Shown here in pieces: positions 21,101-51,766 of a stretch of 64,000 bases of DNA. Origin of the DNA: Ulva prolifera (taxonomy: Eukaryota; Chlorophyta; Ulvophyceae; Ulvales; Ulvaceae); NCBI GenBank assembly GCA_023078555.1, contig CM041202.1, forward strand, positions 1,608,022 through 1,672,021. The letters are read 5' to 3'. The first letter of the stretch is position 1. Each line of letters begins with the position of its first letter. The translations under genes were made by a program, and so were the position numbers. Below the pieces are notes generated by a model. That model worked only from the letters and a program-made list of their open reading frames with translations. It had not been told where the DNA came from and ran no database searches.

Positions 21101-24100
21101 ACATTGGATTGCTTCGGGGGACCACAAGCCTGCGACTTTGATGGTTCCTCTGCAAGGGAAGCACTCAGCATTTCACGCTCCGCCACCAAGACTCAGGACC
21201 CAGACGGATGCATATCAAGGCATGGCCATCTGAATGTCTGCCTAGCTGCTCACAGGTCCTTTGAGGCACCGCAGGTTGCAGCCCATGCACATGTCTGAAT
21301 GTGGTCCCCATAGAATGGTGCTAGGCAAGTGCCCGCCTGCTTCCGCCTCACTCCAAAACTGACCCGGGCAAGTACACAGAGCAACAGGGGGCAGCAGACG
21401 AAGCACAGCGCAGAGGCGGGGGGAGCCGTGCCTGCTGCCTGAGGGTGCCAGAGAGCTGCTGCACGAGGTGGAGGTCCTCCTGGTGGATGCGGCGGCGCAG
21501 CACATGGTCAAAGTACTGCTCCAACTTGACACTCAGGGCCTTCGGGATGCGGTGCGTCCGGCAGAATGAGTCGAGCTGCCGCTGCTGCTCCTGAGTGCGC
21601 TGGCTCTGCAGGCCAGTGGTGCTTCTTGTAAACACACTGGCAAAGGCAAGACAACAGGGCATGTCAGGATAGTACTGTATAATAATAATACTGTACCTGT
21701 ATTATACAGTATTATACAGTATTGTTATACCTACAGTAGGACAGATGCCAGAGCGTGCAGGCAATACGAGACGCAAAGTTGAGGTGCCGGTTTTGGCCAC
21801 ATTGTGGCAGATTAAGCCACAGCGACTACTCGATTGCTGCTAGTGAAAAGATCATGGTCTAGCCCAGGCCGAGCGGCGCACCTGGGCATTGAACGTCGAC
21901 AGCAGTATGCTTGCGGTTCCTGTGACGTAGGCAAACACTGTGACGCCAACGAGCATACCCGCCATCGCGACGAGCTTCTCCGTCGTCTGAATCGGAGTCA
22001 CATCGCCATAGCCGACCGTCGTCATCGTTGACATCGCCCAGTACACAGATGTGACATACCTGCAGCTGTGCTGCTGTGAACAACGGGAGACTGTAACTTG
22101 CTTGTCCCACAGAAGGCGACAGCGACAAAAGCAGCAAGCGAGCTTTCCAATTTCTGTACTTGAATGCATGCAGCAGAGCCAGCGAGCTGAAACAGGCACA
22201 GATCTAGAGCAGAAGAGTTCCAAAAGAGCCACCAGGCGGCCCTGAATGCCTACTATGGTATGTTCCCGATTTTGTTTTTTTTGAATTCGGTCCAACAACA
22301 CAGGCCAGATCCTCAAATGACCCCAGGTCCTTTGTTGTGGGACACCAGCTCCTGTCATGGAGGTGCCAGAACGTAAGCATCGGCGGCGGTGCGTCAGAGC
22401 ACCCACAGGCGTGGCTCAGGAGCATCTCACCTGTCCCAGATGCTCTCACTGTTGACGATGCCCGAAGCTTGCACCCACGTGCTGCCAGATTCCGTCATGA
22501 TGGCAACGTAGTGAAACACGCAAGCGAATACGTGCAGGATGAAGACGATCATCGATGCTGAGGCGCCGATGCGGACGTACGAGCGCCCGAGGGTCTGCTC
22601 CAGCCGCTTCATGATCATTGGAGCCTGCATTCATCATCACCACACATTGCAACCAGCATCACGCCACACATGCAGCTCCCACTCCAGCGCAACTCTCAAT
22701 TCATGGTAAACTCACGTGAGAGGGTGCATGACAAGCTAAATCTGCAGTGCCCGGGAGGGGGCCTCCACATGAGCGGTGGGACGCCGTGCAGCACTTCGAG
22801 GGCTGCCATCCACAAATTAGACCTAAATAATCGGAATTGTGCGATATGATCGCGCCTCCCGCTGCACTGCTCCATACGCCCGCAAACAACTACTTTTCAC
22901 GATGCCCGCATCCGCCCCAACGCGGCCGCTCATGCATGGGTGAGCAAGCACGACGTGCACACCTTGAGCAGGCGCAGGATGCGGACGATCTTGAGGATGC
23001 GGATGGCGCGAGAGAGCTTCACGAACTTGGAGGCCTTGAAGAGCTGCATCAGGCCGAAGCCGCCGTTGCGCAGCACGAGGTCCCACGGCACCGTCGACAT
23101 GACGTCGATGGAGAAGAAGCCGAGCAGGTAGCGGCGCACGATCGCGGCGCGCCTCGTCACGAGCACGTCGCCGCCGTCGACCATGATGAAGCCGGTGCGG
23201 AAGTTCATGTACATGTCGACCATGAAGGTGGCGTCGACCATCGCCTCCCACCAGCCTGGCACGGGCACACCACGTCACGATACAAACAGAAGCCCCATCT
23301 CAGAGGTCGGTGTCGAAGAGGCGAACAGGAAGAAGACGACGTAGTGAAGCAATTCACAAAGGCGTTGGCCTCAGCACCGCGCCATGTCACGTGGCGGCAC
23401 GCATGACTACCGTGCAGCAGTGTACCAAAGCCAGGCCTCTTTTGAGGGCACCTAGACGTGTCGCAGAGGCAACACATCGCTATGCCAGACGCACTGCAGC
23501 TATTCATGTGCACTAGGACATGGGGCGGGGGGGTATCAGACTGCGGCTGGGCCCTGGTGGTCACACCCACGTATGCGCATGTCCTGTGCAAATGCAAACG
23601 TGCACCCACGTGCACTTTGCCGTGGCAGAGTGCTGAAGGTCACTGTGCCTGGCTGCTTTCACGACAGTGCGTGTATGCTGACACACATGGACTCCCACGC
23701 GTGTCAGCATGCATGGAGCAGATGTCCGACATCTGCTGAGTCAGCACATGTGTTACAAGGACAAAGCAAGCGAGGCAGGTAGCACCGCAAGCAAGAACCA
23801 GGGGAACCGCACACCACGCAGCAAGCCACACGAAGCTCACACCAAAACACCCACGCAACGTCAGCACATGTGTGTCCCGTGTACACTGACACAGATGCAC
23901 AAACAAACGAAACTCACCGTTCCGTGTGTGGTGGCCGTCGGTACAGCTATGTCGGGCAGTCAACAAGTTACAATATCTCAGGCCATTGGCAGAGCACCAA
24001 ACCAAACTACCACGCATTGCAGCAGAAGCAGCAGAGGGCGGCTGTGACTGTAGAAGCATGTGGGGCAGGAGGTGTAGTGCGGCGGGCCGCACCGAGGAAG

Positions 24101-24279
24101 GACAGCGGCCGCACGTGGAGGTCGAAGCAGATGAGGAACGGAGTGATGATGCAGACTGAGAAGAGGACAGCCAGGACGTAGAGGTCCCACTGCGTGCGCA
24201 CCACGCAGGACGGGTGCATGACAGCCCACCCGACGAGGTGAAGCATGCTCCAGGAGCCACACTCGGCAGGCCTCACCAA
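18159..24279 (-). CDS. Voltage-gated K+ channel with cyclic-nucleotide-binding domain
   Basis: Nine minus-strand exons join in phase: 24279-24093, 23255-22963, 22624-22431, 22059-21882, 21605-21432, 21067-20879, 20635-19602, 19295-19114 and 18895-18159, giving about 1,055 residues. S1 is in exon 1 (WDLYVLAVLFSV), S2-S4 in exon 2 with the voltage sensor LSRAIRILKIVRILRLLK, and S5 in exon 3. The K+-selectivity filter TTVGYGD and S6 are in exon 4, the C-linker in exon 5. The CNBD begins in exon 6 (GDHSSDMYFVGEGLLEVR) and resumes in exon 8 with the phosphate cassette GEYFGEIA...ARSAS. Exon 7 inserts about 345 disordered Gly/Ala/Glu-rich residues between these halves. The order is that of KCNH/HCN/plant Shaker-type channels of the plasma or ciliary membrane. 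Intron 5 has a GC donor (21431). Upstream exons encoding the N terminus were not found. Confidence 0.88.
21681..21735. repeat. AT-rich short repeat with self-complementary units
   Basis: Repeated ATTATACAGT and TACTGTA/TACAGTA words form small palindromes within the channel intron 21606-21881. No wider match in the window was noticed. Confidence 0.6.
22787..22876 (+). repeat. Family B dispersed repeat, copy 2
   Basis: GAGGGCTGCCATCC, AAATTAGACCTAAAT, ATATGATCGCGCC and ATACGCCCGC follow the family order. It lies in a channel intron. Confidence 0.75.
23740..23873 (-). mobile_element. Family A retroposon with 14-bp TSD
   Basis: A 106-bp insert (23754-23859) is flanked by perfect direct repeats GTCAGCACATGTGT (23740-23753, 23860-23873). 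In the minus-strand sense the insert ends with the conserved family terminus finishing TTTGTCCTTGTA, and the duplication then starts ACACA. It sits in the first resolved intron of the channel gene. Confidence 0.85.
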
Positions 24280-27200
24280 CTGCATGGCGCAGAAGTCTGT
24301 GTCTGGACCTCACACGTTGCACGCGTCGCACACAGACCGGACGACTTGCGTTTCCCCGGCTGTGCTACCTACCGGCCTCTCTGACTGTGTCCTGGTAGCG
24401 CACTGAGAACGAAAACCATTCACGCTGATGCCAGCTGTGGAAGGCATGTCAGAGTGAGCACAGATGCATTCAGGGAACTGCCAGGCTGCAAGGTGAAGGC
24501 AGCTTGTACTCATTGGGTCACCCGTGTCAGATCTGCTGTGCTCATTGTCCTGCCATTCAGAGCAGCATCGTTGCTACTGCATGACAGTATACCTTGCGAC
24601 CGGTTTGTGATGGCTTTGACAGCAGTCTCAGGAGGACACAGGCCGGGGAGACGTTACCGACACTGCGAGCGTGCTTGTGTCCTCTTCATCACACATCTTC
24701 TGCAAGTCGACCAGCTGCATCGTCCTCGGGATCAGCAGCAGCATCTTCAGCCAGTCTCGCAGTGGCAATGGAGAAAAGTACGTCATGCAGGCCCACAAGT
24801 TGCGGTAAAATCCGTACGCTTTGAAGCATTTCCACATCTCTACCTCATCGACTCCTTCGTTGTCATTCAACTCGTTGCAGCTTGGAGATCCCAAGAACGT
24901 GCTCACACCAATCTGTACACCACACGAACTTTCCACCACCACATTTCGACAGATACCAGTCACACGTTGGGACAACGGGGTTATCATCGAGAAGCTGTGC
25001 CAAGTTGCGAAAAACAATAGGTTCAATGATGTGAGATGTACTGGCGCGATTTGTGAAAGATGGTGAGGCCCCAGCGTGTAAGGCTATCTCTTAATTGCCT
25101 CGTGGTGAATTGAATTTTTGTATTCCGTGTGCCCAGGTCCTGCTGTGCAAAAAGGGATGCAGTTGCCTGTAGCGGGGCACCTGGTGCTGCAGTGGCACAC
25201 ATCAGCATTGCACAGCACTGGCATCCCATATATGCTTGCTGTCTTCACCTGTCCTCTGATGGCACGGCGGTGGCCGTAAGAACTAATCAAGCGATCATGC
25301 TGAGACTTCAAACACGATGATAGGTAATCGGGAGGAACCTCGCAGTGGAGGTCATGGTGGCGAAAGTATACAATCTGGCACAGCTTGCCTGCTGTGGAGT
25401 GTCACAATTTGATCTACAAAATCAAGGACGACCTGTATGGCCTGGCCACCTTTGACGTGTCACAGATCAATAAAAAATGTGTACATGTACGGATGCAATT
25501 TCGACTGGATGCACATCTGGCGTGTAGTGAGTCTGCAATGCTCTTGACAGTAGTAATATGGCTGGAGAAGCACTGACAACCTGATCTGGCGTTCACAGCG
25601 GACACTCACTCCCGCTACAGTGAAATTGCTGTGACATGTACTGGAATATAGCACAAGAGTGCTCGTACAAGCAGCTCATGCTTTGACATTGAAAGCGAAC
25701 ACGTACACAGATGATTTGTTGCGGAGATTGGTCTTCGTATCTCAAGGTCTAGTGGAGTAACACACCGGTGTGATGACAGACCTACTTGTTACGTTGCTGT
25801 TTGCCATGCTTTCACACACTGGTCCAAGCCCCCCAGCAATTGATGACGAAGCTCGTGATGCACGTCCATTGACATCAGCAGATCGCCTTGCAGAAACATT
25901 AAGCCTCCTTCTCGATACACTGCAGCCTTCTCTGCGAGGCGTGTTTGAGTAGACCGCTAGGTGGTTGCCTGTGATGCAGCGGCTGCTCAATCGCACCATG
26001 GGATGGCCTGGGGGATCTACTACGTGAAGCACCTGTGGACGTATATCGGTGGATTGTGAAAGATGCCATGAGAGCCTGCAAAGGGTCTGACCGACTGCTG
26101 GTGAAAACTTCCTGAGCGCAGGCCGCTCCAAGCTGGTAGAAACTCTCTGAGTGCAGCAACGGCACCTGGACACCTCTTCTCGCACAATCCCAGATATCTC
26201 ATCCCTACAACTCTGCTTTACGATCACGCCAATTTGTGCGGCAAGCTCCGAAACATCGGCTGGAGTCATGTTGCAGAAGACCTGCGGGTCTTGATGACAT
26301 CCATGCGGCATGTCCAAGGTACGGCTTCGTTCATACTGGTGCTCCATTGCCACCCAGCATAGTTAGCGTCGGCGTGCGCATTCGTCTTCTCCTGCTGACA
26401 GGCAATGGACGAGAGAAGCGGGTCGCATGGCATCCCGATTACCACAGCTATCGTTGATCTTGGTCAGAGGCTTAAACTAACTACACATACCGCTATAAGC
26501 ACCTGGGTGCTCATGCTTGGTGCCACTGCCTGGCATCATGCCCGTCAGGCTGGTCGACCAGGAAGTCAAGAACAAGAGAGCATGCCGGGGGGATAGACGT
26601 CAGACAGTCGCATCAGCCACTTTTACCTGTTTCTGTGGACTGTATAATTTCGGAATTAAGTGCTGTCTAGAACCTAAACGACCAAGCTGTTAATGTTGCA
26701 ACGCAGAGCTGAAACGCACTACATCGCACTGCGCACGCGTCAACCCCGTTGCGCATAACGTTTGACTTCAATCACTTTTTGCACCTGGACAGGTTTCCGT
26801 TCGCGATCGTTCTGTGTCGCGCCGGAGCCCCGCCAAGCTGACCTTAGCCGCGCGCGTGACCATCATTCGGCACCCGGGTGGAGCTGTTTCGCGGCAAAAA
26901 GGGGCCCTGGTGCCTTCTCCCAACAGGCCATGAGAGCAACGCCAGGAGGACGTAACCGACATTTGTTTCTTATGCAGCGCTTTGCGTCTCGTTGGCGTCT
27001 CTCTTGCGACATTGATGAGTTGTGAAAGCAGCTCACGACGTTGCGGCAGCTCCTGGCACACACCTTTGCGCTGGCACCGCTCTATGTATTCGGCAAGAAC
27101 TGTGAAAGATTGGTGAGACTTCGTGCGATCTTAATCATTCTGTTTGGTAGCGTGATGCCATTCAACGAGACTGTGAATCAGCCATGTGTATGGTTTACCT

Positions 27201-28460
27201 AGTGTACTGGGCTGCATGTTGTCTTTGCTGAACAAGACGCGCACATCGCTTGCACAACAATACCGGCACTGAGTGCTTTCAGCTATCACTGCGGGCAGTT
27301 GCTGCACCAATATCGCGGCAGGTTGAAGCGCCTTTCCTGGTGCAACTCCAAGCTCAAGCCAACTTGCTAGCACCGTTCCTGCACACTGCTGCGATTTGAA
27401 TTTGATTAGGAGGCTACCCATGCCGTCTCCATGCCACTGCTCTAAATCAAAGTCACCTTCAGAGGAATGACCACATGGCCTGCCATATGTCAGCACTTGC
27501 ACAGAGCGCTTGTTGCGTAGTGTGCGGTTCCCCTGGTTGCTGCTCGCGGTGCTACCTTGCTTGCTTTGTCCTTGTAACACAGAGCGCTTGTGCAAGGCAG
27601 TCTGCATGCCTGCTGCAGTCTGCATGCCTGTTTCAGCTGAATGTCTGGGTGAATGTTCATCATACAACAGCTCGGGCCAATGCATGACAGCGCACAGAAG
27701 CATACAGCAGTGTTTACCCGACCAATTCTATGCACATATCGCTTCGCGTCCTCAACATATGCAGCACTCCGTCCTTGCTATTGAATCATTGAGCACGGAC
27801 ACCCCCCCCCCCGTCTCACAGAACATATGCATGCCCGAGCCATGCGCCGCCAGCCCCGAGCGTTTCCCTCCCTCTACTCACCACCAACTTCAAAATGCTA
27901 CCACAAGCACAGCCACGTGCAGTCGCTGTCAAAGACAGGCTGGTTAACACCAGTCCCCATCCGCTTCTACTGCCTCACATCCGACGTGGACACGGGCAAT
28001 CACCACAACGTACACGTCAGTTGCGGGCACAGCCACGCAGGCACCACATCACATTGCAGTTTTTTTTCAGGCACCACATCTGACATGCATGCCTCAAGAA
28101 GCCTCTGCACAGAGGCAACACCCCCACAGGCACTCACACGATGCAGCTGAACAGCTTGCACCCCTCTACCGGCGACCCTTCGCCACGCAGCACACAAGCG
28201 TCAACTCGCGTGCCGCCTGCACTATCTATCGCAGCACACGCATACTCCGTCGCTAGACCCCGTGCTGGGTCAATGCTCTGCCTGCTGCATCACTTACAGC
28301 TTCACAACCGCCACAACACACGCCACGAATCTACCCTCCAGGCTGCAGCAGGAACAGATTCTGGAGCAATTCAAAGCGCGCACAAACACATGACATTTCA
28401 CCGCGGCACGGACAGCTGCGTACCACAGGTGCCACAAGGCATACTCAACCCCTCCTCTCC
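24280..28460. other. Gene-poor region upstream of the channel gene
   Basis: About 4.2 kb of lower GC content with only short ORFs. It should include the channel promoter and N-terminal exons on the minus strand; an open stretch at 24628-25026 (-) is possible but shows no domain. One family A insertion lies at 27500-27591. Confidence 0.4.
27500..27591 (+). mobile_element. Family A retroposon, shortest copy, 14-bp TSD
   Basis: A 64-bp insert (27514-27577) lies between perfect direct repeats CACAGAGCGCTTGT. The insert is only the terminal part of the family: GGTTCCCCTGGTTGCTGC, then GCGGTGCTACCTTGC, ending TTTGTCCTTGTAA. Confidence 0.85.
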
Positions 28461-31400
28461 CTACCACAGCACGTACAGGTCCTCATTTGCCGATCGCAAG
28501 TCCGTCAGCATACTGTCCGACAGAGCGCGCTCCCTCTGCTGCACGTTCAGCTCCCTCAGGCTTGCCAGCAGCAGCAGCGCAGGCAGCAGCGCCGCGGCCC
28601 CCTCCCGCCCGAGCCGCGAGTATGACACGTCCAGCACCACCAGCTGCGGCGCCGCGACTCCGCGCCCTCGCTTCCCGCCGACCGCCTCGGGACACAACGC
28701 GCCCGCGAGTTCCGCCGCGCCCTCTCGGCCCATCTGGCAGTAGCTCAGCAGCAGCTGCGTGAGGCCGCCGAGGGCGGCCAGCCCCGGCGCGAGCGTGTGC
28801 AGGCCCGGCGGGTCAAGCAGACTCTGGCCGAGGTCCAACACCTCGAGCCGCGGCACGCGCGTCAGCCCCTGCGCGAGCACCCGCCCCCCGCCCTCCCCGA
28901 GCACCGTCCCCCGTAGCCACAGCTCCCGCAACTCCTGCATCCCCTCCACGGCCGCCGTCACCTGCCCCGGCGACAAGAAGCAGTTCTCGAGACTCAGCCG
29001 GCGCAGGTCCTGCAGCGCAGCGAAGCCATGGGCCATCGCATCCTCCGCCTCTGCACCCTCTTGCAGCGTCTCGCATAGCACGATGGAGTCGTTCATGCTG
29101 AGGGACCGCAGCGCGGTCAGCATCTGTAGCGCGCCGGCGAGCGCCGCGGCGCCCGCGCCGCTGAGGTGCGACCCGGACAGGTCGACGTGTGTGAGGCACG
29201 TCAGGCCGGCGAGGCCGCCAGCGTACTCCTCCGCCAGCAGCGCCCCCTCCATATCCCCCGGCTGCCGCAGCACGAGCTCCTGAAGCCGCGGTAGCTCCTG
29301 CAGCAGCCACCCGACATCCACGGAGTCGTTGCGGTGGAGGCTGAACGAGAGGTCGAAGCGTGTGAGGCACGGGCAGAGGCGCGGGAGGCCCAGCATCTCG
29401 CGGGCGAGCCCCGCAGCAGACGAGCTGCGGTAGTCTCGCACGCACAGATCCTTCAGCTTCGGGAACAGGAAAGACCCCTCAGCCATGGACCGGGCGTCAA
29501 GGCCGTCGTGCGCGCCGAAGCCGTAACGGTCTGCGTCATACCCCAGTGTCAACACTTCAGTGTTGGGCATGAAGACACGCCCCCTGAGCAGCGCCGTCAG
29601 GTCTTCGGGTTTCCAGGAAATCTTATCACAGTGTAGCTCTTTGATGTTGGGGAACTCCACCATGCTTGCTGAGAGGAACTCGGGGACTGACATGATGGTC
29701 TCAGTTGTTGCCATCTGGATGCGGGTCAATTGTGTGAGGGTCATGATGGCGAGGGAAAAGGGCGGCCCGACGATCTCGGGGGTCTCAGGGATCACGTCTA
29801 ACTGCATTGCGCGCAACTTCTGTGCACCGAGCAACGCCGCGCCGAGCGAGACGATGTGGTGGTCCATGACCGAATCGTCGGAGAGGTGCAGCAGCGTGAG
29901 CTGCGGCAGAGCACACACAGCGCGCAGCATGCGGCCGTACAGCTCCTCCTCGCTTGCCACGAACGAGACCGTGATGTGCACGGCCTGGAGCGCCGGGAGG
30001 TGCGGGAGCGAGACCGCGAGCAGCTCCATGCATGCCGGGTTGTCCACGGAGATGTCGAGGGACTGCTCCGCATCAATGGGGGGCGCGCAGGCGCGTAAGG
30101 CGGCGGGCTGGAGGGCCGGGGGGAGAGATGAGAAGAGGTCCGGGATGCGGACGGGGGGGACGGGGAGGGTGACGGGCTTAGGGCCGGGGGGGCAGAAGGA
30201 CTGCCGGAGGATGCTGACGGCGACGTCCTCCGGCACGCTCTCCAGCACCTGCACAACGCGTGCATCAGCGCGGGGGCACAGAGTAAAGTAAAGTAAAGCT
30301 GAATTTACTGAGCCGTATCCAGTTGGACATTGACAATTCCGAGTGCACGGGACACATATGCTGAAGGGGTAAACCACCTGGAAACCCCCCTCAGACGACC
30401 GTACGCAACTCACAGGGCCTCCTCCTGTGCTGAGCGAGGTGGTCACGCACGGCCGTTTTGATCCCCCAAAGCGCACGCAGAATCGGACCCACAACCTCCT
30501 GCAACAGAGGGGGTAGCTCTAGAGTAGTAGGACGGGACTGGATGGCAGTGTGGTTGAAAATGTTTCGGCTTTGTGTTGCACCACCAATGCGGATGCTGCA
30601 TTGTAGCCGTTTGCAGATTCAAGTAGAACTGCATCTTGAGGGGCAAGAAGGGGGGGGGGGAGGTTTAAAGGCGAGCCGAACGCAAATGAGCTCTTCAGTC
30701 GCCTCAAACAGCAATGGTGGGCTGGAGATGCAGCACACAGCGCAGCACAAGCAGTGCAGCACACGCAGTGCGGCCAGGCGGCCGAGCCTCCCAGTCTGGG
30801 AAATTCGAACCGGGCCCAATACATCAGGAGGTCTCCGCAATTGGCCTTCGGTCCGGTAGTAACTTGAGTCAGTCAGCAGGCTCTGCACTGCAAGACGCAC
30901 GGACGGAGCTTGTTTCAGGATGTCGTGCGGGCGGTAGAATCTTTGATGGTTTTTTACACTGCCACCTGCCAGCGTCCTTGACAGCTGACAGATTCTGCAG
31001 AGGCCCCGCAAATGTGTGTCTTGAACAATTTAGGCAAGACACAGGCACACAACTGGCAGGTTCACAAGCAGGCCAGGGAAGCAGTTACTGCGGCGTATGC
31101 ATATGGGACATCTCTGACCAATTCCGCCTTGCCAATCACGCGCGACGTGGCGGACACTAGATTTTTGCCACCGACCATCGCGCGTCGCGGCACCCCTCTA
31201 CAATGTGACGCGCCGCGGTGCCCCTATGACGCGTCGCAGCGCCCATAACGACGCGTCACAGTCCCGGGGATGTCTTGTTCCTGCGGGATCCCGCCTTCAT
31301 GTCATGGGCGGCACAATGCGACCTCCTGTGCCACCGCGGCACAGGCCGGCGCCTGAGCAAGGCTGAGTGATCGATTCATGCAACAGGCGCGCCGCATTGG

Positions 31401-32763
31401 TCAGTACTGACAACGACCCGAACAACGAATTCGAAGATTCAGGCATCACTTTGCGTATTTACATGGTCATTCTGTAACACAGGAATCGATCAAGCCCTCG
31501 CAAGAGCCCTTTAGATCTCATGTGGCACATGGACAATTGGCACTGACATACTGTGAAACCTGAGGTAGAATATTCACCGCAGCTGTTTGGTTGACATCAC
31601 GAGCTGATAGGCCATTTGGCTAGCTGACATGTCTTGAGGACCTGATCCTGCCGGAGTAGTAGTTGGCAATGTGTGTTGTGCACGGGTGCTGGCTGCCGGC
31701 TGCCGTGCTGGTCATGTGTGTTAAAAGGGTGATCGCAACGCTTCGGAGGTTTTTTTGCTGTATTTGTCTGCACCCATGTACTCTTCAACAACATATGACA
31801 TATGACACGGTTTGATTCTGTTGTTGGCAATGACATACTGCAATGATTGCATGCATGCGGAAAACCAGTCACCCAGCAGCCCAGTAACAACAGCACCAAC
31901 ATAGCGTTGACAGCAGCAACAAAGCACATTCAAGGCCGAGGGACTGCCAGACAGAGGGGGCACACGTCTCACCACAGCAGGACTGTGCCTGTCTTGCACC
32001 GGGGCTGTGCCCATGGCTCTCTGTGATGCCTGCAGTGGTTGATGCATACTTGCCTTCCCAACATCACAGCTACTAAATTCAAGACATTGCTGACTCCAGT
32101 GGCGGCTCCGCAAACCACACACCACACAACAGCGCACCAGTATGGGGTATAGTTTGTTGCACCGGCATGGGGTACGGTATGTTGCGTGCTGCGTGCTGTA
32201 TCTTGCGTGCGGTCGGTATGTTGGTCGGTGTGTTGCTGCGTGCTGCATGTTGCTGTATGTGCTGCATGTTGCTGTATGTTGCATGCCGCGCGGATGTGTC
32301 TGTGTCCTGCGGTGCTACCTGCCTCTATCGCTTTGTCCTTGGAACACAACAGCACACCACACACCAACACGCCCGCTGCCACTTTCATCCTTGTAACACA
32401 CCAACACGCCACCACGCTCTGCCACACTCTTCGACTTGTCTTGGCTTAACACTCTGCCACACTCTGCCGCACACTGAAACACACTGCCACCACAACCTAC
32501 CAGACAGCTGGTCATGCCCTTTCACCAGAACAGCATGGAACCACAAGAACATACCAGTGATGAAATGGCATGCAGTGCGGGGAGGAGCCTTCTAGCAAAG
32601 GCAGTCACCAGTGTTCTTGCAGTTGAAGGAGCGTGGGAGGGGCAGAGATGCTCACCTTTTGTAGAGCAGCAGACAAGGCCGATGCGTCGGACTGCTGTGC
32701 TGGAGGATGTCCTTCATAAAAGCTCGTGCGGGTGGATTGAGGGGCCGTCTCTTGATTGTTCAT
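28461..32763 (-). CDS. Leucine-rich-repeat (RNI-like) protein, paralogue 1
   Basis: A long 3' exon (30252-28461) encodes about 597 residues beginning VLESVPEDVAVSILRQSF after a TGTGCAG acceptor. A 36-residue first exon (32763-32656, starting MNNQETAPQSTRTSFYEG) has a GTGAG donor and matching phase, joining as AALQK|VLESV; that link is inferred. The large exon holds irregular ~25-residue LRRs such as LTHVDLSGSHLSGAGAAALAGAL and LRRLSLENCFLSPGQVTAAV (shown in part), typical of cytosolic ribonuclease-inhibitor-like arcs used for protein binding. The protein shares sequence end to end with the gene at 36633-38708, including the ALRACAPxIDAxQ motif. A single 2.4-kb intron contains a SINE-like copy and a family A insertion. 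Binding partners cannot be inferred. Confidence 0.82.
30282..30540 (-). repeat. Family S SINE-like element, copy 2
   Basis: Nearly colinear with 2287-2530, sharing long identical blocks such as AAACCACCTGGAAACCCCCC on the plus strand. In the minus-strand sense it has B-box-like GTGGGTCCGATTCTGCG and the tail TTTACTTTACTTTAC. The head upstream of the B box differs from copy 1. It lies in the LRR gene intron. Confidence 0.75.
30783..30870 (-). repeat. tRNA-like sequence with A- and B-box matches
   Basis: On the minus strand GGCCAATTGCGGAG resembles a Pol III A box, and about 35 nt downstream CCCGGTTCGAATTTCCC is a strong B-box/T-arm match. A full cloverleaf could not be folded by eye, so a tRNA relic or the head of a second SINE is more likely than a working tRNA. 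Confidence 0.4.
32124..32359 (+). mobile_element. Family A retroposon with 16-bp TSD
   Basis: Insert 32140-32343 (204 bp) lies between ACACAACAGCGCACCA and ACACAACAGCACACCA (15 of 16 identical). Its 3' part has TGCGGTGCTACCTGCC and ends TTTGTCCTTGGA. Its 5' part is a TGCTGCATGTTGC-type internal repeat. It is in the intron of LRR paralogue 1. Confidence 0.8.
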
Positions 32764-32950
32764 GATGGCGCAGTGAGGGGCCAAGGGCAAGAGGCAGAGC
32801 TGGTCCGATGTGGAAGTCTGCCTGTGAGGAGGTGCTGCGCAACTACAGATGGATACCAGCTGCAGGCACAGATGCTGCGTAGGCATGCGGCTCGCAATTG
32901 CAATCGTAGTCACGTTGCCAGTCTGGGCATGCACTCAAAGCTGGTAAGGT

Positions 32951-32996
<46 letters not shown>
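32951..32996 (+). repeat. Uninterrupted poly-G run (46 nt)
   Basis: 46 consecutive G residues on the plus strand about 190 bp upstream of the proposed start codon of LRR paralogue 1 (minus strand). Such runs can form G-quadruplexes; length may be affected by sequencing. Confidence 0.95.
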
Positions 32997-32997
<1 letters not shown>

Positions 32998-34144
32998 AGC
33001 TGTCGCATCTGGCTATACATAAATGCGATCCCAATGCTATCATCTTTCAATGCGAATCGGCGTTCGCCTGCTCGGACGGGGCACGATTGAGCAACGTTCA
33101 GGTGGAAGGCATGCTTTCTTTCCGGCACATGCACAGGTCAGACCTTAGTGCCGGGACTCGGCAGACAACATTTGCAAGAAAAATGAAACAATATGTCAAT
33201 TCTCGTCTCAGGTGTAATCTCTTGCGCCATATAGCGGCATGGCGATGCGCAGGCTAGAACAAATGTGCAGACCAATCCAGCCTTGTCCCAAGCCCGACGG
33301 CAAGCCCACACGAACTACAGTTGATACACAAAAACTCAAGATGTATCCCACTTTTGACACAGCTGCAGCTATGCGCAGAGTCCACACCTCGGCGATTCGG
33401 TGTGCTGCCACTGGTGAACGCGTGCGCAGAGCAGAGGCTACGCTGCGCAGCGCGATATCACCCGCACATCAATAACAATCCAGCACCTGACATCAATTGT
33501 TCACACTGGAGATGTTCAGCCCTGTTAGCGACGCTTCTTGGATTGAGATCCCGTGTCAGCGCAGATCTGGTTCTGCAGCGTCATATGCATCGACTTGAGA
33601 AACTCTTGTGCTATGTTTGTTTGGACCCATTTACTCTTCAATGACGAAATTTGCAGCTTCATCGACGACTGAACGACGGTGCACCTCGCGCTTTGTGAGA
33701 AGTCAAGAGATGCTGAAGCTTTGTGCGAACTGCCTTCAATTGTCAACGCGGTCTCTGCAGCTGATGGTGATTCGGAGGAGAGCGTTTTGCTGTGTTCGTA
33801 TTTGCCCGTTCATTCTTCTATAACATCCTGCAGCTGATGGTGTATCGGTGGTGCGTTCGTGAGCTGATGTCATGCAGATCGCCTGCCTCTCAGGGCTGAC
33901 GCGTGACATCGACCGCTGCTCCGAGATAAAGATCTGTATAGGAGGATGCGGTATTGCAGCAGAAGCTACACCTGCGAGCTTGAACGGTCGACACACACTT
34001 GCGACATAGATCGTGCACGATGCGTGACGCTGCTGATGGCCATGCCGGGCCCTTTCGCCACTCTACATCTGCCGGAATTCATTTGAATTTACGTGCAGGG
34101 TCCTGTTGCGGAGCTCCAACGAGTACGCCAGGACTTGCTCTTTC

Positions 34145-34147
<3 letters not shown>

Positions 34148-34193
<46 letters not shown>
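34148..34193. repeat. (AT)n microsatellite
   Basis: About 23 TA units without interruption. Tyr/Ile ORFs across it are artefacts. Confidence 0.97.
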
Positions 34194-38708: not shown

Positions 38709-38721
38709 CTGCATGCATGCA

Positions 38722-38790
38722 TACATGCATGAGAGCCACAATCCTCAGTCCTTTGTAACTACATGCATGAGAGCCACAATCCTGAGTCAT
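38722..38790 (+). repeat. Short tandem duplication
   Basis: ACATGCATGAGAGCCACAAT occurs twice, about 37 bp apart, just upstream of the large LRR exon. It looks like a local duplication. Confidence 0.85.
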
Positions 38791-39750: not shown

Positions 39751-42700
39751 CTGCATGCACCCGCTGCTCCCTTGCTGCGCTGCGTCGCTGCTGTTACGAG
39801 TGAGGCTGCCACTCAAGCAGCACTATGTAGGTATCCCATCCTCATCAGTTGACAAGTAACCCTCCGGGGAGGCGCTTTACGTGCAACACCTATGCCTCCC
39901 GGCTTAAGCAATTGCGTTGCTGTAGCTGGGGCTACGTGTGCGCACAGTGGGACCTCGCGCGCGTGATGCATGTAGAAGCTCCGTGCGGCTGATGTGGGGT
40001 GACGCGTACACGCCAGTCTTGGGGCGTCGGGCCCGATCAAATGTAACAAATTCCGAATAGTCAGGTCTAAATTCTGGGTGGCAGACCTGGAAATGCTGCA
40101 AAGCGACCCAACACTGGTACACGCATCCACAGGAACACGTATACGAGAACAAGTTGCATAACTTCGGGCCGTTGCATGCACTAGGGGCACTGGGAGCAAG
40201 TAGATGCTCCATCCCCCACCTAGCTCCGGAGGGCCATGTTGGGAATGGCTGTGTGTAGCATGCATGCTGCAGCTAGCATGCATGATACCCACAGCCACAC
40301 ACGGGAATGCATATGCTGCACATGTGATGTTTGGAATGGCATGATTTTATCCCCACTGGCCTTAGCTACATCCATTCATCTCTTGTGGCTGGGGGACTGC
40401 CACGCCCTAAAATTTTTGCAGGGGCGAATCGCAGTGTAGTCTGTGGGAGAAGGCACGCGGAGCGCAGCGGTCGTGGGCTGGGTGTTTGTGGCGATCCTGC
40501 GACATGGCCGCTATACCACTGGGCTGCCACAGTGTGGGCTGTTCACTGCTGCCTCTGCTTCCGGGCTGTATCAAAAGTAAAAAGCCGGAGAGGCAGGCAG
40601 CACCGCATAACTATTTGGCGAATGAATGAATGGACATGAACAACACACCCGGTTCACAACAGGGCACATGCTTACATGCTTTTGGGTTCACAGGCAAGTT
40701 GATGGGTAGCACCAGAATCAAACGAACTGCGGATTGTGGACTGTGTATGCCCCACACAGAACCAGCCACCTGATACATTTTCATACAGCTGTCCTTGCTC
40801 CGCTCCCAGGTTCCTTTAGAACTTTCGAATGATGTCATGGCCACAACCCTCTACATAAGTTTGCTTGTGCAAAGCTACAGAAGTCTGCATGTGCAAAGTG
40901 AGTGTGGTACAGCTCTGCCTGGTGTTTTGGTCAGGCCCATCATCCTATGTGGCCCCATGCATGGGTTGGGTCACAATCATTAGGCATTGCTTAGGTAGAC
41001 AGATGATGGGTGTTGCCCTGATGATCCATGTGGCATAAGTATGTGGGTTGACAAGCATGCAACAGCAGCTGCCTCCGGGATTCATCATGTGTAGAGCACC
41101 AGCAGGTGGGTGTTCATCATCTGTTAGGATATGAGTATTCATGATGTGCAGCCAACACTGCGTTGCACCACAGCCTGCACCACAGTTGCATCATCACAAC
41201 ACATCACACATCATGATATGACCAGATGTACTTTACATCAGACTCTGTCAGTCTGTGCCAGACTGATTATGAGGCCAGAGCCACGCTTTTTGAGCACTGC
41301 ATCACCATGCATATGCTGTATTTGCGGCTGCTGTGGCCTGCTCTGTGCAAGCTGTTCTAGAGTATGGACAAACTGGACAAGCACAGGTACATTGTGACCT
41401 GGCAGAAAGCAGTCTCTTCCACCTCAGGGGAGGCTCAAGAGCAAGCAGAAGGTAGTAAGCATGGCACAGGATTGCAAAGGCAGCAGCTGAATAGAGATGG
41501 AATGACTACAGTGAGATGTCCAGGATGGCAAGTGTTGATGATTGGCTGAGGCCATGCAGCAAGAGGCTGCACCTGTGCCTTTGCCTTGGCTGTTGCAGCA
41601 CGCCTTGGTACACACAATGCATATGCGGCGTGGTAATGAGTGGTAATGAGTGGTAATGAGCAGTCCTGCCAATATGGTTCAGAGATGCAGGTCATCTGGT
41701 CTGGGCTAAGGTTTCCACCTGATCTGAGCTGCAGAACAAAACACAAGAAAGAGACAAGCACAACCTGTCCAGCTGCCCATCACAACCCGTCCACCCATCA
41801 CAACCTGTGCAGCTGCCCATCACAACCCCACAGCTGGCTCTTGAGAGCATGACAAATGATGTGACAAATTGCACTCCATGTTGCATGTGTCTACCTGTGT
41901 GCATGCAGTATCAGGCATCTTGTTCTATACATGTGCATGTGGTGTTGCTGGGCTGACAGCAAGCACCATGACCATGGCAGTGGTGGATTTGTTATGCACA
42001 GTATGGTTTCTCATCAGGTGAGAGGTTGATCTAGTGTAACTCAGAGTTTGCTGTTGGGCTTTTCCAGCCACCTGTCAGAGGACTGCAGCTACCTTGTCGC
42101 CTATTCTGCACACCCTGTCTGGACTGAAGAAGGAAATCCTATCAGATTCCTGTTGTTGAGTCTTTGATACAAACATGACTGTGGCATGTGGAGCTTGCTT
42201 ACTGAGCAGCTCCACGGCAAGTGCAGTGAGATAGCAAGTACATGTGCACTCGCACCAGTATCTCAAATGGACTGGCAGTGCATCTCGCTATGTGTCTTTG
42301 TTAGATATCTGCTATGCCATAGATCTGTCCATCAGTGTGTGCAGTGCTAGCATGAGCTGTCGCATTCAGCCAGCTGAAGCAGCCAGTAAGTCGAATCTGG
42401 CTAAACATCCGGGCATCGGACAATTGCGTTCTGGAAGGCAACCAGATTACGAACGCAGAAGCCTGGCATTGGCGCAGGAGTAGTCCGCGAAAGGTTGCAA
42501 GTGCAGCTGTCAGGCAATTGCAAGAGCACAGCAGCAATGATGCTCGATGAATGCGCATGCTGTCGCTCGCGTTGACGTGGTGCCAGGCGATTTGGGAATG
42601 ATTGATATGCGCTTCATGGTGCAATGATTGCTGGTGCGTGCATGCAATGTCAGGCAGGCCTGCGCGGAACTGAAACCTCGGCATTGCCGCATCCAGGTCT

Positions 42701-45569: not shown

Positions 45570-45709
45570 AAAACTGCTGTCACCCAATGCAGGTGCTGCT
45601 GTGTGCTGACTGTCGGCAATGCGATGAGTGTTTGGTGCTCCACTCAATGTGGTACCATGTGGTACCCGCCTCTCCGACCTTGTTCTTGTACAAAACTGCA
45701 GTCACCCAA
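45570..45709 (+). mobile_element. Family A retroposon with 18-bp TSD
   Basis: Insert 45588-45691 (104 bp) is flanked by AAAACTGCTGTCACCCAA and AAAACTGCAGTCACCCAA (one mismatch). Its end, CCCGCCTCTCCGACCTTG then TTCTTGTAC, is a diverged family terminus. This is the one TSD that does not begin ACAC. Confidence 0.7.
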
Positions 45710-47782
45710 CTCAGCATGCTGCAGACCCCCAAGGCACCTGATGTGATGCTCCCTGATAATCTTGCATTTCGGTGGCGATGGCGCCATTCGGCATTCGGGA
45801 AATTTCGGACCCCAAGAATGTTGCACCGCTTGCTTCGCTTTGAAAGTCCAGTACGTGTGACTCCGTGCGCATGCGCACTTGGCACACACTCGAGTGATGT
45901 AACGGGAGGTATCCACGCCTGCTTCGCAATCGCATCACGTCTGACTGGGTCACAAGCCGCATGCAAGCTCAGCAGAGCTCTGTCTGCTGACATGCCTGGG
46001 CGCATGCCGCTGCACATGCGGTTTCCGAAGTCCCGTCGGCAACGCCAGCGCAACAGTAGTAGCTGCCCTAGCCTGGGGTCAAACGGCCGGACCCGACACG
46101 CTCGCCATGCAACGACTGCTACATTCAACGATCCTCCATCGTTGCCGTGTATGCTTGCAAGTATAGAGATCGCTTGTATCGTCGTTGCATGGGTGGGGGC
46201 CTTGCTCTCCACGTAAATTGCAAGCGCTGCGATCGCTATAGCTTTCACCAAGGAGACCTGATATTTTGAGGCATGTGACACATGCTTACGCCATCGGTGT
46301 CCCTTCCTGGTACCGCATTCAGTGCATTCTGCTGCGGCTCGAGATACGCTGGGTTGGTGAAGCGCGACCAGCATGGCGTTCCCATCGGAGCTGGAAGCAG
46401 AAGCGGTTGGGAAACGGTAGCGCTTGCACCACCTGAAAGTGGAGGAAGCACGCGGTCATCCGTGAGCTTGCATGCGGTTTAGCCTGGTGAATTTTCAAGA
46501 TTACTGGCTACGATCGGTCATCGGCATCGCTGATCGCTGCGACCTTGGCTGCGCGCGGATCAGCCCAGATGCCGCTCTGTGAAAAGCTGGCAGAGAGGCC
46601 ACATGCGCTATGGAGTCATGACCTGTCACCCAGCATCGCGTGATCTCGCGGTTAACGGCGGGACGCATCCAGCCCCGGCGTCGATGCCCGACTGCAGAGA
46701 CGTGGTAACCCATTCGCGAAGCTATGAGTTGTGTTACAAGGACAAGGCCAAGGCGCACACATCCACTTTCACTCGTGTGTTGACTCGACTCACGCAAGCC
46801 TGCAATGCAAAGGCAAGGATGGCCTGACATGTCCACATTTGGCGTGGGGAGCAAGAGCCCTTGCCTGTCACCCATGACAGCTGTGCTCAGTGTTCTGGGG
46901 CCAGTACATTGCTCACTGTGCCCATAGTCTGGGATTTGCGGCAGTGGCTAACAGCCGTTGGCTGTCCTGACTCCTGTAGAGCTGGTGCTTGATTGACAGT
47001 GTTGAAACAGCAACAGCTCGACCTTGCATGTCTGTAGCAAACCAGTATTACAGCGACTCAGTGTGTATCACTAGACTGCAACAATGTCGCATACCATGGT
47101 ATAAAATTCAAAAACACTGTATCGTCATAGCCTGTAGCACCGGTACTTTGAGACAGCTGGCCATCTGTCTCAAAATAATGGCGGCAACAAAGCAGATCCG
47201 GTGCTGTGGGAATTCAGTGGTGTGGCCGTTGTACCACTGGCATCCTCGCACGTTGCAATATCACTGGATTGCCACAGAGACCCGCTTCATTTCTGCAGGA
47301 ATCCACACACAGATGCAGCACTGGTTGGGGCTGTCACATGTTGGGTCGGATCGGTGGCCATGTTGTTGCAGTCCTCGCTTTTGCGGTGCTGCCCGCCTTG
47401 TGGCCTTGGTCTCGTAAACACTGCAGCAGTGTGTCTTACAAGGGTGCAGGCAGCGAGGCGGGCAGCATTGCGGAATCAGCATGCAGTGCGCACTGCTTGC
47501 TGATTATGCGCAAGAACACAACCACCAGCCAAGACCATCGCACCCACGCCACATTCGCGTTGTTACAATGCTTGCTGGTTCCGCCGTGCTGCTTATCGCT
47601 CGGCTTTTGTCTCGTAACACACAGCCGCAGTGTGAGTTAGGTGCAGAAGTGTCTCGCACGTGTGCGTGTGATAGAGGATGTATGAAGGTGCTGCAGTTCG
47701 GGAGAAATGCTGCAGCATGCCGGCAGCAGTGTATGGATGCTGTCTTGTATGAAGGTACGGCGGTGGCTTGCACGTGCAGTGT
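45710..47782. other. Gene-poor region with decayed family A copies
   Basis: No supported gene. Diverged family A termini occur near 46731-46760 (-), 47372-47415 (+), 47434-47475 (-) and 47557-47622 (+), recognisable by a GCGGTGCTGCCCGCC-type block and TTGT(A/C)TAA-like ends. Confidence 0.45.
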
Positions 47783-48002
47783 ACACATCATCGTGGTTAT
47801 GGTTATGGTTATGGGTGTGTGGGTCTGTGCGTGTGTGTGCTGGTGTGTGGGTGTGTGCTTGGCGGTCTGCGGATCTGTGTCGCTTGCTACGCCGGTGATG
47901 GGTGAGATGTTCGTGGGTGTCTTGGTGTTTGCTTCGTCTGCTTGCTCCTTTCGCGGTGCTGCCCGACTCGCTGCCTTTGTCCTTGTCACACATCATCGTG
48001 GT
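47783..48002 (+). mobile_element. Family A retroposon with perfect 15-bp TSD
   Basis: Insert 47798-47987 (190 bp) is flanked by identical ACACATCATCGTGGT at 47783-47797 and 47988-48002. It starts with TATGGTTATGGTTATGGG, then a GT-rich body, TTTGCTTCGTCTGCTTGC and the conserved terminus ending TTTGTCCTTGTC. Confidence 0.88.
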
Positions 48003-48128
48003 ACGGTGCAACTGACCTCTCGAACTTTGTCTTTGTGGCACCCCGAGGAAGCAATGCAGGTTCGTATAAATCTATGGTCATATGACCCTCGTCGGGCACA
48101 CCACGCTCCTAGGCAGGGTCGAGAGCGC

Positions 48129-48201
48129 ATGCAGAATTTTCAGGGCTGCCACACCGAGATGTGATCTGGGTATTTTTCGAATGTTGTATATGCAATCGGG
48201 C
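48129..48201 (+). repeat. Family B dispersed repeat, copy 5
   Basis: TTTTCAGGGCTGCCACACC and GTATATGCAATCGGGC correspond to the family with more divergence in the middle. Confidence 0.6.
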
Positions 48202-48383
48202 AGTGCTAGCCACATGTGCTAGCCACATGCATGTGCACACACGCACATGAAATAGCTGAGGCTGGCCGGGCGGACGGCGCCGGCGCCGGCGCATGCCGGC
48301 TAGCGGGCAGCTGGATCTAATCTACACTATAGTTCGGAGCAGTTAGCACGTGCAGTGCAGACCGGGCCGTGGCGCACCGTAGC

Positions 48384-48560
48384 CACAGGCGCACAGGCGC
48401 ACAGGCACACAAATTTTTTTATTTTTTTTTTGGGCGTGGTGGGTGTCGCGTGCGTGGGTGTCTGTGTGTTTGCTTCGTCTGTGTTTGCTTCGTCTGTTTG
48501 CTTCTTTCGCGGTGCTGCCCGCCTTGCTGCCTTTGTCCTTGTAACACAGGCGCACAGGCG
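48384..48560 (+). mobile_element. Family A retroposon with 16-bp TSD
   Basis: Flanked by CACAGGCGCACAGGCG at 48384-48399 and 48545-48560, though the site is itself repetitive. The insert opens with a T-rich run (48414-48431), then GGGCGTGGTGGGTGT, three CTTCGTCTG units and the conserved terminus ending TTTGTCCTTGTAA. Confidence 0.75.
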
Positions 48561-48951
48561 TCCCGAGTGTGGGGAGGGGGGCATATCAAGGAGGAGCCCG
48601 GCATTGGAGGGGGGAACATGCGGCCACACGTGTGCGGCGAACCGTGGCGAAGACAGGACTCAGAAGCACAGTGCCAACCCACGCAGCTCATCACCGCACG
48701 GCCCGACAAATGGACAACACATGCAAGACTCCCCAGCAGCATCGCAGGCCACGCTGGCAGACCATGCTTTTATTGCGTGTCCGTGGGAGCCAGTGATAGC
48801 CCCGGGTTGAATGTGTCAGACCGAATCGTGGCACAATGCGAACACATCATGCCCCATGGCCTTTGCTGCCTGTCCTGTGCTTGCGGTCCTGTGATCTTGA
48901 GTGTTTGCAGTGCTAGGTGGTGTCGCCTTTGGCCTGACCTGCGTGACCACA

Positions 48952-49075
48952 CATGAACAGCCTGTGTTACAAGGGCAAAGCAAGCAAGGCAGGTAGCACT
49001 GCGGGGAACACTCAGGGGCACCGCACACCCACACACAACCAGCAATGTAATACACACAGCATGAGCAGACTGTGT
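48952..49075 (-). mobile_element. Family A retroposon with diverged 16-bp TSD
   Basis: Insert 48968-49059 (92 bp) lies between CATGAACAGCCTGTGT and CATGAGCAGACTGTGT (14 of 16 identical). In the minus-strand sense it ends in the family terminus and the duplication then reads ACACA. Confidence 0.75.
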
Positions 49076-49250
49076 GTTACGAGGACAAAGCAAGCAAGGC
49101 AGGTAGCACCGCGAGCAACAGCCAGAGGAACTCACACCACGCTCGATCCACACGCAACGAGCCACACGCAGCACACACCAACACACCCACGCAACGGCAG
49201 CACCCGCACCGGCCACAGCCACACAGCCACACAGCCACACAACCGCACAC
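49076..49250 (-). repeat. Family A retroposon, adjacent copy, 5' limit unclear
   Basis: Starts at TTACGAGGACAAAGCAAGC and keeps the same body as the copy at 51622-51750 up to CACCGGCCACAG. It abuts the previous copy head to tail. It runs into a CCACACAG repeat and no TSD was found. Confidence 0.65.
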
Positions 49251-49589
49251 ATCCCCAAACACACACAAGCCGCGTTTCCTTGACGCCACCGACCGATGGC
49301 CTCTGACTCCAGCTAGGCCGGGTCCGATGGGCGTGCGGGATGCCTTCGTAGGGACTGCGGAGACGGCTTGGGCGATGCATGCATGTCCTGGGTACGGCGC
49401 GGCGTGGGCCGGCGGGGCTGCGCGGCGGTGTGTCATGCTGGCGTGGTGTGCTATGGCTCGGGGGGGGCGGGGGTGGGGTTTGGGGCTAGGGCGGCCCCCG
49501 GCAGTCGGGCGGCCATGATGGGCGGCCTCAGGCAGCAGTGTTTTCGGTGTGGCCCTGTCGTACGGCGGCGGGCGTTGTGGTGTTAGCGG

Positions 49590-50301
49590 TTGTGTTGTTG
49601 TGTGTTACAAGGGAAAAAGCCGGAGGGCCGGTAGCACCGCCAGGACCAAAAGGGAGAGCATGAGAAACGCAATGCGCACGTAGCAGAAGAGCAACAGCCA
49701 ACGCCAAGGCACAACAAGCACCCACACACCCCCACACTCCTACACACCACCACACGAACCACCCCCCACACGCACCTCCACACACACCCACCCCCAAACG
49801 CCCCGACACACGTGTGCACTGACACCCGACCCACGCGCCGACGCACCCGCACGCGGCCCAGACCCAACCCCCAACACACACACCCACGCGCCAATACGCT
49901 ACACGACCCCGCCACCCGCGTGGCAGCGGCAGCCCCATGCAGCGGCCTGGCCGGCGCCTGCCCCACACGGAAGCCGCCGGGGGCCCCCAGGACCCCCGCC
50001 CCAATGCCCCGACCAGGCCAGCCCCGAGCGCCGGAACAACACACACGGGGGCGCCCCCACCCGCCAACCCATCCGGAACGGAGCACGCCCGAGGCGCGCT
50101 GTGTTCGGGGGTCGGGGCACACGGCAGAGGCAGCACACGCCGTCTATCAGTGCGTCCGAGCCTCGGACGGCGCCCGGCCCGCGAGAGAGCGACGAGGACG
50201 CCACGGGCAACTCGCCGCTCAGGCCGGATGGCCAGTGAGCGGCGAGAGATCATCACATGGGACCGTAAGTCCCATCAGTACTGCCTTGTGTTGTTGTGTG
50301 T
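49590..50301 (-). mobile_element. Family A retroposon, longest copy (680 bp), perfect 16-bp TSD
   Basis: The 680-bp insert 49606-50285 is flanked by identical TTGTGTTGTTGTGTGT at 49590-49605 and 50286-50301. Its left end (minus-strand 3' end) is the family terminus, seen on the plus strand as TACAAGGGAAAAAGCCGGAG then GGTAGCACCGCC. The rest is very GC-rich with long CA/CCACACC tracts. Open frames on the minus strand (for example to 50256) are low-complexity Gly/Val/Cys/Arg with no recognisable reverse transcriptase, so it is non-autonomous or heavily truncated. Confidence 0.8.
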
Positions 50302-50339
50302 GGGCCGTGGGGTCTGTGCGTGCGTGTATGGGTGTGTGG

Positions 50340-50496
50340 GTGTGTGCTTGGCGGTCTGCGGATCTGTGTCGTTTGCTGCGCCGGTGATGGGTTTTCTGGG
50401 CGTGGTGGGTGTTGCGTGCGTGGGTGTCTGGGTGGGTGCTTCGTCTGCTTGCTTCTTTTGCGGCACTGCCCGCCTTGCTGCCTTTGTCCTTGTAAC
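50340..50496 (+). repeat. Family A retroposon, copy with the 47.8-kb body type
   Basis: TTGGCGGTCTGCGGATCTGT, CGCCGGTGATGGGT and GCTTCGTCTGCTTGCTTC match the copy at 47783-48002, followed by the terminus ending TTTGTCCTTGTAACAC. The 5' limit and TSD were not found. Confidence 0.7.
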
Positions 50497-50614
50497 ACAC
50501 AAGCCGCCCACCACATACCCACAAGCACACCCACACGCCCACCCCCACCCACACCGTGCGAAACAGCCAGGCGCAAGAGCCCCGACAGCACACGCAGCCA
50601 AGGCTGCCGAACAG

Positions 50615-50716
50615 TGGGCAGACTGTGTGTAATGGGCAGACTGTGTGTAATGGGCAGACTGTGTAATGGGCAGACTGTGTGTAATGGGCAGACTGTGTAA
50701 TGGGCAGACTGTGTGT
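50615..50716 (+). repeat. Tandem repeat with alternating 18- and 16-nt units
   Basis: Six copies of TGGGCAGACTGTGTGTAA, some lacking one GT (16 nt). Each unit carries ACTGTGT, similar to the ACACA-type family A insertion sites nearby. Confidence 0.9.
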
Positions 50717-51559
50717 ACAGTTAGGCATGCCTGCGGACTCTGCTGGAGCTGTGGTGCACTTGCTAGGCAGGTCCAAGGAGCATGCAATGGAGATGTGAAT
50801 GGAGATGTCAAATTTCCACGGACGAGACGATGGTTGGGCTGCCAGACTCGGCTCTGAAGACACGAGACTCGTCAAGCACAGGCTGGCTATAGCCTGGCCA
50901 AATGCACACGTACGCAGGAGCTGCACATGCACGTGTTGACGTTGCAATTGCGTCAAAGACAGCTGTGGCCGTACTGCACGAGGGGCACCAGCATCACCGG
51001 AAGCGGTGCTCATCTGTGACCACGCCGTTCTTGGCTCAGAAAAGCTGAGTGCTCTGCTACGCATGGAAACAATACTCGCACAGGCATCCATCGCGCATCC
51101 GGCAGGGCCATGACAAGCTGCCTGGTCAGAATGCAACTCACCTGTGTCATGTTCGCGGCAGCCAACATGTGTATCTATGTTCTCCATGGCGCGATGCTGA
51201 TGGCCACGCTTGATGCACTCAGCAACTGAAACGAACGGCCTCGTACAGGCGCCGGCGAGCAGTCAGAGCAGCTCCATCAACTGACAAACAACCATGGACA
51301 ACCTCTTTCTATCATTGCTTGCCTCTATGACGTCGGCGTATACGTGCCTGGGGATAGTCTCTGGACCTCAGAGGCCGCAACGTCACTCATCTGACAGATG
51401 AAGAACTCTTCCAGTCGGTGGAACAAAACATTGTATCTGGTGTGCATCAGCAGCTAGTTTGATACTTCTGCAGGTCTTGCAACAGTTGTCGCACGGCGTC
51501 ATCAATGCCAGTGGTGCAAGGTACCTGACAGACGGCAGCTCGCGTGGAACGCACTGAAT
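50717..51559. other. Gene-poor stretch
   Basis: No exon, tRNA or repeat family was recognised; only short ORFs. Confidence 0.4.
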
Positions 51560-51766
51560 CACACAAGGCAGAGATACTGCCCGCCTTGCTGCCTTTGTCA
51601 TTGTAACACAAAGCACAGACGCTGTGGCCGGCGCGGGTGCTGGTGGTGCGTCGGTGTGTTGGTGTGTGCTGCGTGTGGCTTGTTGCGTGGTGTGCGGTTC
51701 CCCTGGTTGCTGCTCGCGGTGCTACCTGCCTTGCTTGCTTTGTCTTTGTAACACAAGGCACAGACG
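51560..51766 (+). mobile_element. Two stacked family A copies, second with 16-bp TSD
   Basis: A family terminus (about 51572-51605) is followed immediately by a second insert, 51622-51750 (129 bp). The second is flanked by ACACAAAGCACAGACG (51606-51621) and ACACAAGGCACAGACG (51751-51766), 15 of 16 identical. It therefore appears to have landed at the ACAC tail of the first. It has GTGCGGTTCCCCTGGTTGC and ends TTTGTCTTTGTA. Confidence 0.8.

Follow-up and report, generated by a model that had tools for sequence, protein, structure and literature searches.

A 64,000-nt stretch of the Ulva prolifera genome (assembly GCA_023078555.1, contig CM041202.1, positions 1,608,022 to 1,672,021; hereafter the window) carries short inserts of varied length that have only one end in common, which we call Family A. 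The question raised by this locus is whether these inserts form a short retroposon family of their own, as a preliminary description proposed, or are pieces of a larger element. We found that the window inserts are ordinary stubs left by target-primed reverse transcription (TPRT) of a long interspersed nuclear element (LINE) with a restriction-like endonuclease (RLE), and that the interest lies in its parent. With very high confidence, the members of Family A derive from a group of long LINEs (subfamilies A1, A2 and A3) as copies that lack their 5' part and were dead on arrival. New here are the reverse transcriptase (RT) motif CHDD, confined to one four-member clade, and a preference for A/CACA targets (slash, insertion point).

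A conserved tail marks inserts of variable length

The 15-nt block GCGGTGCTRCCYGCC matched the window 19 times at up to two mismatches, against 1.67 ± 1.33 expected, and none of 100 shuffles reached 19. At the same tolerance, the terminus TTTGTCCTTGTAA was found 14 times against 0.58 expected. The tail block was also abundant in the whole assembly (88.9 Mb, 44 contigs), with 4306 matches (2114 + 2192) at up to one mismatch compared with 68 (32 + 36) in the reversed control. Tails are locally clustered at window positions 46700-51770, and at up to one mismatch the window holds 12 block matches, whereas a genome-wide mean of one block about every 21 kb would give about 3. The common end, previously put at about 40 nt, is real but measures about 37 nt; eight of the nine insert lengths given before were reproduced within 1 bp, while the 104-bp insert was not.

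Target-site duplications (TSDs) were then scored at 15 window tail ends, a set that left out the tails at 40592, 47457 and 52778. Seven of these (inserts of 64, 107, 130, 145, 191, 205 and 681 bp) scored at least 12, against 2 of 300 control placements; an eighth insert of 93 bp had an imperfect duplication (13/15, score 9), and seven ends had none. The wider sample comprised 70 tail copies from the window (14), 48 contig-1 loci in their listed order and four probe-selected loci. TSDs scoring at least 11 flanked 34 of these copies, compared with 5 of 350 controls searched in the upstream sequence of another locus; 36 copies were without a convincing TSD, and the tail at 47383 had none. A smaller earlier sample, whose pattern missed some copies, gave 29/55 against 1/55 in the control. 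Keeping offset 0 only left 25 of the 29 TSDs scoring at least 11 in the smaller sample and 30 of the 34 in the wider one. These 30 in-register TSDs measure 11-24 bp and enclose inserts of 57-1084 bp.

Pairwise matches among the copies listed were collinear from the 3' end and stopped at differing 5' points. The constant 3' end, variable 5' end and flanking duplications noticed at first sight are borne out. A fixed length at both ends, which would favour a DNA transposon or hairpin repeat, was not what the copies showed. The GC-rich terminal block is a point for a DNA transposon, Helitron or hairpin repeat, but the variable TSD length, the single constant end and an open reading frame (ORF) end of an RT protein upstream of the tail make such an origin, for which no search aimed at terminal inverted repeats was made, extremely improbable.

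The inserts continue into the coding region of a LINE

At least three subfamilies were distinguished by their 3' untranslated regions (UTRs), namely A1 (GCTACCTGCC...), A2 (GCTGCCCGCC...) and A3 (...CTCCRGCTTTTTCC...). Longer copies extend through a UTR of about 560-614 nt into an ORF ending in ...LTGHPA and a stop codon. Four of the five long copies examined (624-952 bp; two A1, one A2 and one A3) reach the ORF end ..L[ST]PLTGHPA-stop or a close variant, and the fifth, of 588 bp, is too short to do so. The idea of a separate short retroposon family was therefore dropped, because the inserts come from the 3' parts of full-length LINEs in the same genome and the 681-bp insert itself holds the ORF end. 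A related alternative is a short interspersed nuclear element (SINE), a separate non-autonomous family whose 5' head would be its own and whose tail would be borrowed from a LINE. Many copies are indeed short (13 of the 30 with an in-register TSD are at most 205 bp), and another repeat in the same genome appears to share a LINE tail. However, no 5' end is fixed over lengths from 57 to 1084 bp, and the long copies examined run on into the LINE 3' UTR and ORF, so that we regard a SINE as very unlikely. Without their parent, the stubs would pass as unclassified repeats or SINEs.

Full-length parents are present elsewhere in the genome

The window itself yielded no parent, in agreement with the preliminary description. 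A full-length parent of A1 type spans 5,436 bp at C1:782020-787455; its open frame has 1,535 codons, and its 20-bp TSD, CACACACACGGCCACAATGC, is perfect. The distance from stop codon to TSD is 560 nt, and two extra bases (CT), included in these lengths, separate TTGTAA from the TSD. The attribution of the inserts to TPRT by a LINE machinery is upheld, and parent LINEs with an RT are present in the same genome.

A search of the genome with the last 118 aa of the ORF from an A3 copy gave 1423 first-look candidates, of which 150 were scored. Among the scored loci, sixteen, counting the place of the query itself, matched at 100% identity, and nine had a frame open over 1440-1556 codons. Another long copy, L103, has a 1531-codon frame (stop to stop) and an A3 tail, and is flanked by two (CA)n tracts. 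Ten ORF-end loci were compared with it, one being L103 itself (L099 is the same place and was not counted); over 960-2076 bp, identity was 99.2-99.6% for five of the nine others and 94.1-95.8% for the remaining four. Between the ORFs of L103 and the A1-type element, the ratio of nonsynonymous to synonymous divergence (dN/dS) was lowest in the RLE core (0.09) and the RT-linker (0.19) and higher in the N-terminal part (0.46) and a disordered stretch (0.57), with a value of 0.29 for the whole ORF. The near-identical ORF-end loci and the dN/dS values point to recent activity and purifying selection, and the LINE system is complete and apparently recently active.

Two other candidate parents were rejected. 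Loci from a genome search with RVT_1 (150 of 452 candidates scored) were LTR-like (long terminal repeat) by match length, and the 30 examined were without a Family A tail at up to four errors. The LINE with an apurinic endonuclease (APE) at L039 and L040 differs from Family A at its 3' end. This APE LINE family, whose frames reach 1574 codons, might still have moved the RNA of the Family A 3' UTR, in which case the stubs would be products of another machinery. Against this, the APE LINE ends in TCATG followed by CATA-type repeats in 8/8 copies examined (one with a changed stop, two sharing a flank), whereas the stubs and the full-length RLE LINE have CACA-type TSDs in common; we give this explanation little chance. 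The LINE with its own RLE remains the preferred source.

The parent encodes an R2-like protein with an unusual RT motif

In parents with an intact frame, a single ORF of 1531-1535 codons codes for a protein that combines an R2-like RT with a CCHC knuckle and an RLE core, and the LINE machinery is of the RLE (R2-type) kind. For comparison, 138 proteins were aligned, 24 from earlier searches and 114 from the best 120 of 252 profile matches at E <= 1e-20; 136 were kept in the tree. The Pfam RVT_1 match in the parent is weak and under its cut-off, while structure matches support an RT fold, with R2 leading and LINE-1 close behind. A sequence search of the PDB returned two matches only, both R2 chains. 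The catalytic aspartates are conserved, with the motif A D in 138/138 and the motif C xxDD in 137/138 aligned proteins.

The RLE core of the parent contains RGDIL...GDV and KRDKY (KX2KY) and is preceded by ARHN. Its residues are nearly invariant among the non-gap rows of the aligned relatives (D 133/133, D 133/133, K 130/133 and H 133/134), and KX2KY and a preceding RH appear as RLE features in a passage of PMC5678591. The knuckle occurs in the parent and nearly all relatives, the parent spacing being CX1CX8HX3C compared with the pattern CX2-3CX7-8HX4C. Zinc-finger-like motifs were recognised by eye at the N-terminus (CPVC...H...H and CEYC...H...C); zf-Di19 reached just 17.1 of 27.5 bits. Between knuckle and RLE core lies a low-confidence stretch of about 200 residues. 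In P0001, residues about 1175-1370 between the same two domains are rich in Pro and Ala; this segment is found in the CHDD lineage and is absent from the relatives P0005-P0008. Neither of two parents matched the APE endonuclease domains PF03372 and PF14529 at E <= 1, and the genomic loci of these parents gave no such match either.

The usual RT motif is [YF]xDD, and a motif of the CHDD type is unusual for RTs. Among the 138 aligned proteins, motif C reads YLDD in 60, YADD in 22 and FLDD in 15, and CHDD solely in P0001-P0004; nine others have xHDD (VHDD, LHDD, AHDD or YHDD). In the midpoint-rooted tree, P0001-P0004 group together as a clade with support 1.0, adjoining five relatives without the H (node support 0.98), and the other xHDD proteins branch at different points. 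The strict pattern DDTYVQG matched 19 genomic sites, a lower bound, and the motif there reads CHDD in 17, YPDD in one and WHDD in one. A literature search on CHDD with reverse transcriptase returned nothing relevant by title, and among the titles and abstract beginnings listed we met no RLE LINE with an ACACA target in a green alga. The lineage is a natural case in which to ask how much change RTs tolerate in the [YF]xDD motif.

Insertion at CACA and a possible self-reseeding cycle

Copies terminate in ...TTGTAA; the in-register TSDs begin with CACA in 29/30 cases and have A at position -1 in 21/30. A hand count of A1 junctions, with a pattern that excludes T at the 13th base past the tail, gave TTGTAA/CACA in 80 of 100 listed from 193, and CACA came next in 42/54 sampled copies that end exactly in GTAA. 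The listed junctions are mostly not long CA microsatellites. Owing to the A/CACA preference, a target is left beside most copies. New copies sometimes land at the CACA that immediately follows an older tail. One example is the 130-bp window copy, whose 5' TSD adjoins the TTGTAA end of a different copy. Same-strand tail pairs within 300 bp numbered four among roughly 100 listed contig-1 matches, against about 0.24 expected from density by a hand estimate.

The last 37 nt or so are conserved across the subfamilies despite otherwise differing UTRs. For 27 distinct tails from the smaller earlier sample (score >=9, ending AA, copy >=75 bp), alifold gave a 4-bp hairpin at -4.2. Column shuffles averaged -0.45 ± 0.81, and one in 100 of them reached the value of the tails; because variation in the stem is one-sided, this is weak evidence for the hairpin. 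UGUAA is a green-algal poly(A) signal.

From these features a mechanism can be proposed. The endonuclease would nick the strand 5'-TGTG/T-3' (A/CACA on the top strand), and the RT would recognise the 3' tail, with its putative small hairpin GCGG[UGCURC]CYGC and UUGUAA end, and prime on the nick. First-strand synthesis would often halt early and produce stubs about 60-1,100 bp long. Since UGUAA stands at the very end, we suspect read-through, by which the RNA may include a few bases of downstream CACA picked up at the parental site, and these could pair with the nicked TGTG end. Taken together, an R2-group LINE lineage with a working Cys-His-Asp-Asp RT, a trivial ACACA site, a UGUAA-end tail and read-through CACA priming at TGTG could maintain a self-reseeding target cycle with stacking copies, a scheme that we put forward tentatively and hold to be somewhat less probable than its opposite. 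If it is true, each insertion duplicates its own landing site beside the conserved tail and new copies stack on old ones. Odd short repeats are in any case resolved into a transposition system whose junction is exact and whose target motif is short, with thousands of tails and near-identical donors, some of them with intact frames.

Features of the window and other repeats

Table 1. Family A copies and tails in the window (window coordinates)
Feature	Position	Strand	TSD and remarks
Tail copy	17466..17501	+	no clear TSD
5'-truncated LINE copy, 107 bp, A1	23753..23859	-	CACATGTGCTGAC at 23860-23872 and 23740-23752
5'-truncated LINE copy, 64 bp, A1	27514..27577	+	CACAGAGCGCTTGT at 27500-27513 and 27578-27591
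5'-truncated LINE copy, 205 bp	32140..32344	+	14/15 at 32125-32139 and 32345-32359
5'-truncated LINE copy, 191 bp, A2	47798..47988	+	CACATCATCGTGGT at 47784-47797 and 47989-48002
5'-truncated LINE copy, 145 bp, A2	48400..48544	+	CACAGGCGCACAGGCG at 48384-48399 and 48545-48560
5'-truncated LINE copy, 93 bp	48967..49059	-	imperfect, at 49060-49074 and 48952-48966; adjoins another copy's tail
Tail copy	49077..49112	-	no clear TSD
5'-truncated LINE copy, 681 bp, A3	49605..50285	-	CACACAACAACACAA at 50286-50300 and 49590-49604
LINE ORF remnant in 681-bp copy, last 21 codons and stop	50219..50284	-	AVLMGLTVPCDDLSPLTGHPA and stop; stop at 50219-50221
Tail copy, A2	50460..50495	+	no clear TSD
Partial tail copy	51580..51606	+	no clear TSD; 130-bp copy inserted immediately behind
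5'-truncated LINE copy, 130 bp, A1	51622..51751	+	14/15 at 51607-51621 and 51752-51766

Several other repeats were recorded. The APE-type LINE at L039 and L040 (C1:1767400 and C3:1726100) has frames of up to 1574 codons and a stop codon within ATGTAA; downstream of its copies lie TCATG and CATA-type repeats. A SINE-like repeat on the minus strand of the window (2290-2551 and 30283-30518) is 98% and 92% identical, respectively, to a piece of L042; a B-box-like GGTTCGATTCT was seen by eye, and ARAGORN reported no tRNA in it. Its 3' end resembles that of the APE LINE in L039 (4498-4546; 86% over 50 nt), and their sequences suggest an apparent SINE-LINE tail partnership. A second truncated repeat with a Family-A-like tail ...CCCGGCCTCTGTCCTTTGTAAC lies at TACATACA sites in L042 (2563-2732), L046, L047, L051 and L039 (4820-4989), and the sequence upstream of this tail resembles an RLE LINE C-terminus by eye. 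The window also contains, at 53535-58735 on the minus strand (C7:1663899), gag and pol frames of 406 and 1323 codons from an LTR retrotransposon that is Ty3/gypsy-like by Pfam, and a 34-bp tandem repeat with TGTGTAA units at 50615-50717 (three copies, 97% matches). Scans of the window gave no Rfam match at the gathering threshold and no ARAGORN tRNA.

Comparison with known systems

Human LINE-1, an APE-type element, shares with the Family A parent an RT, the TPRT mechanism and a close fold match, but no APE domain was detected in the Family A protein. CRE, R4/Dong, NeSL, HERO and Utopia are RLE LINEs like the parent, and passages in PMC4640811 and PMC5678591 describe several RLE LINEs that target microsatellites or other repeats. 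The same RT-knuckle-RLE core is present in metagenome and Diplonema papillatum proteins (P0003-P0024 and P0145-P0258), most of which carry YLDD, YADD or FLDD, unlike the CHDD of P0001-P0004. R2 (R2Bm, 8gh6/8ibz; R2Tg, 9dou/9nl3) shows 12-16% identity to the parent in structural alignments. R2 inserts at a 28S rDNA site, whereas the Family A LINE occupies dispersed sites that mostly start with CACA and does not show the site specificity of R2 proper. It further differs from R2 in its 11-24 bp TSDs, the RT motif CHDD, the knuckle spacing and the low-confidence stretch of about 200 residues, and it provides a natural test of how RLE LINEs shift from strict sites in multicopy genes to short motifs.
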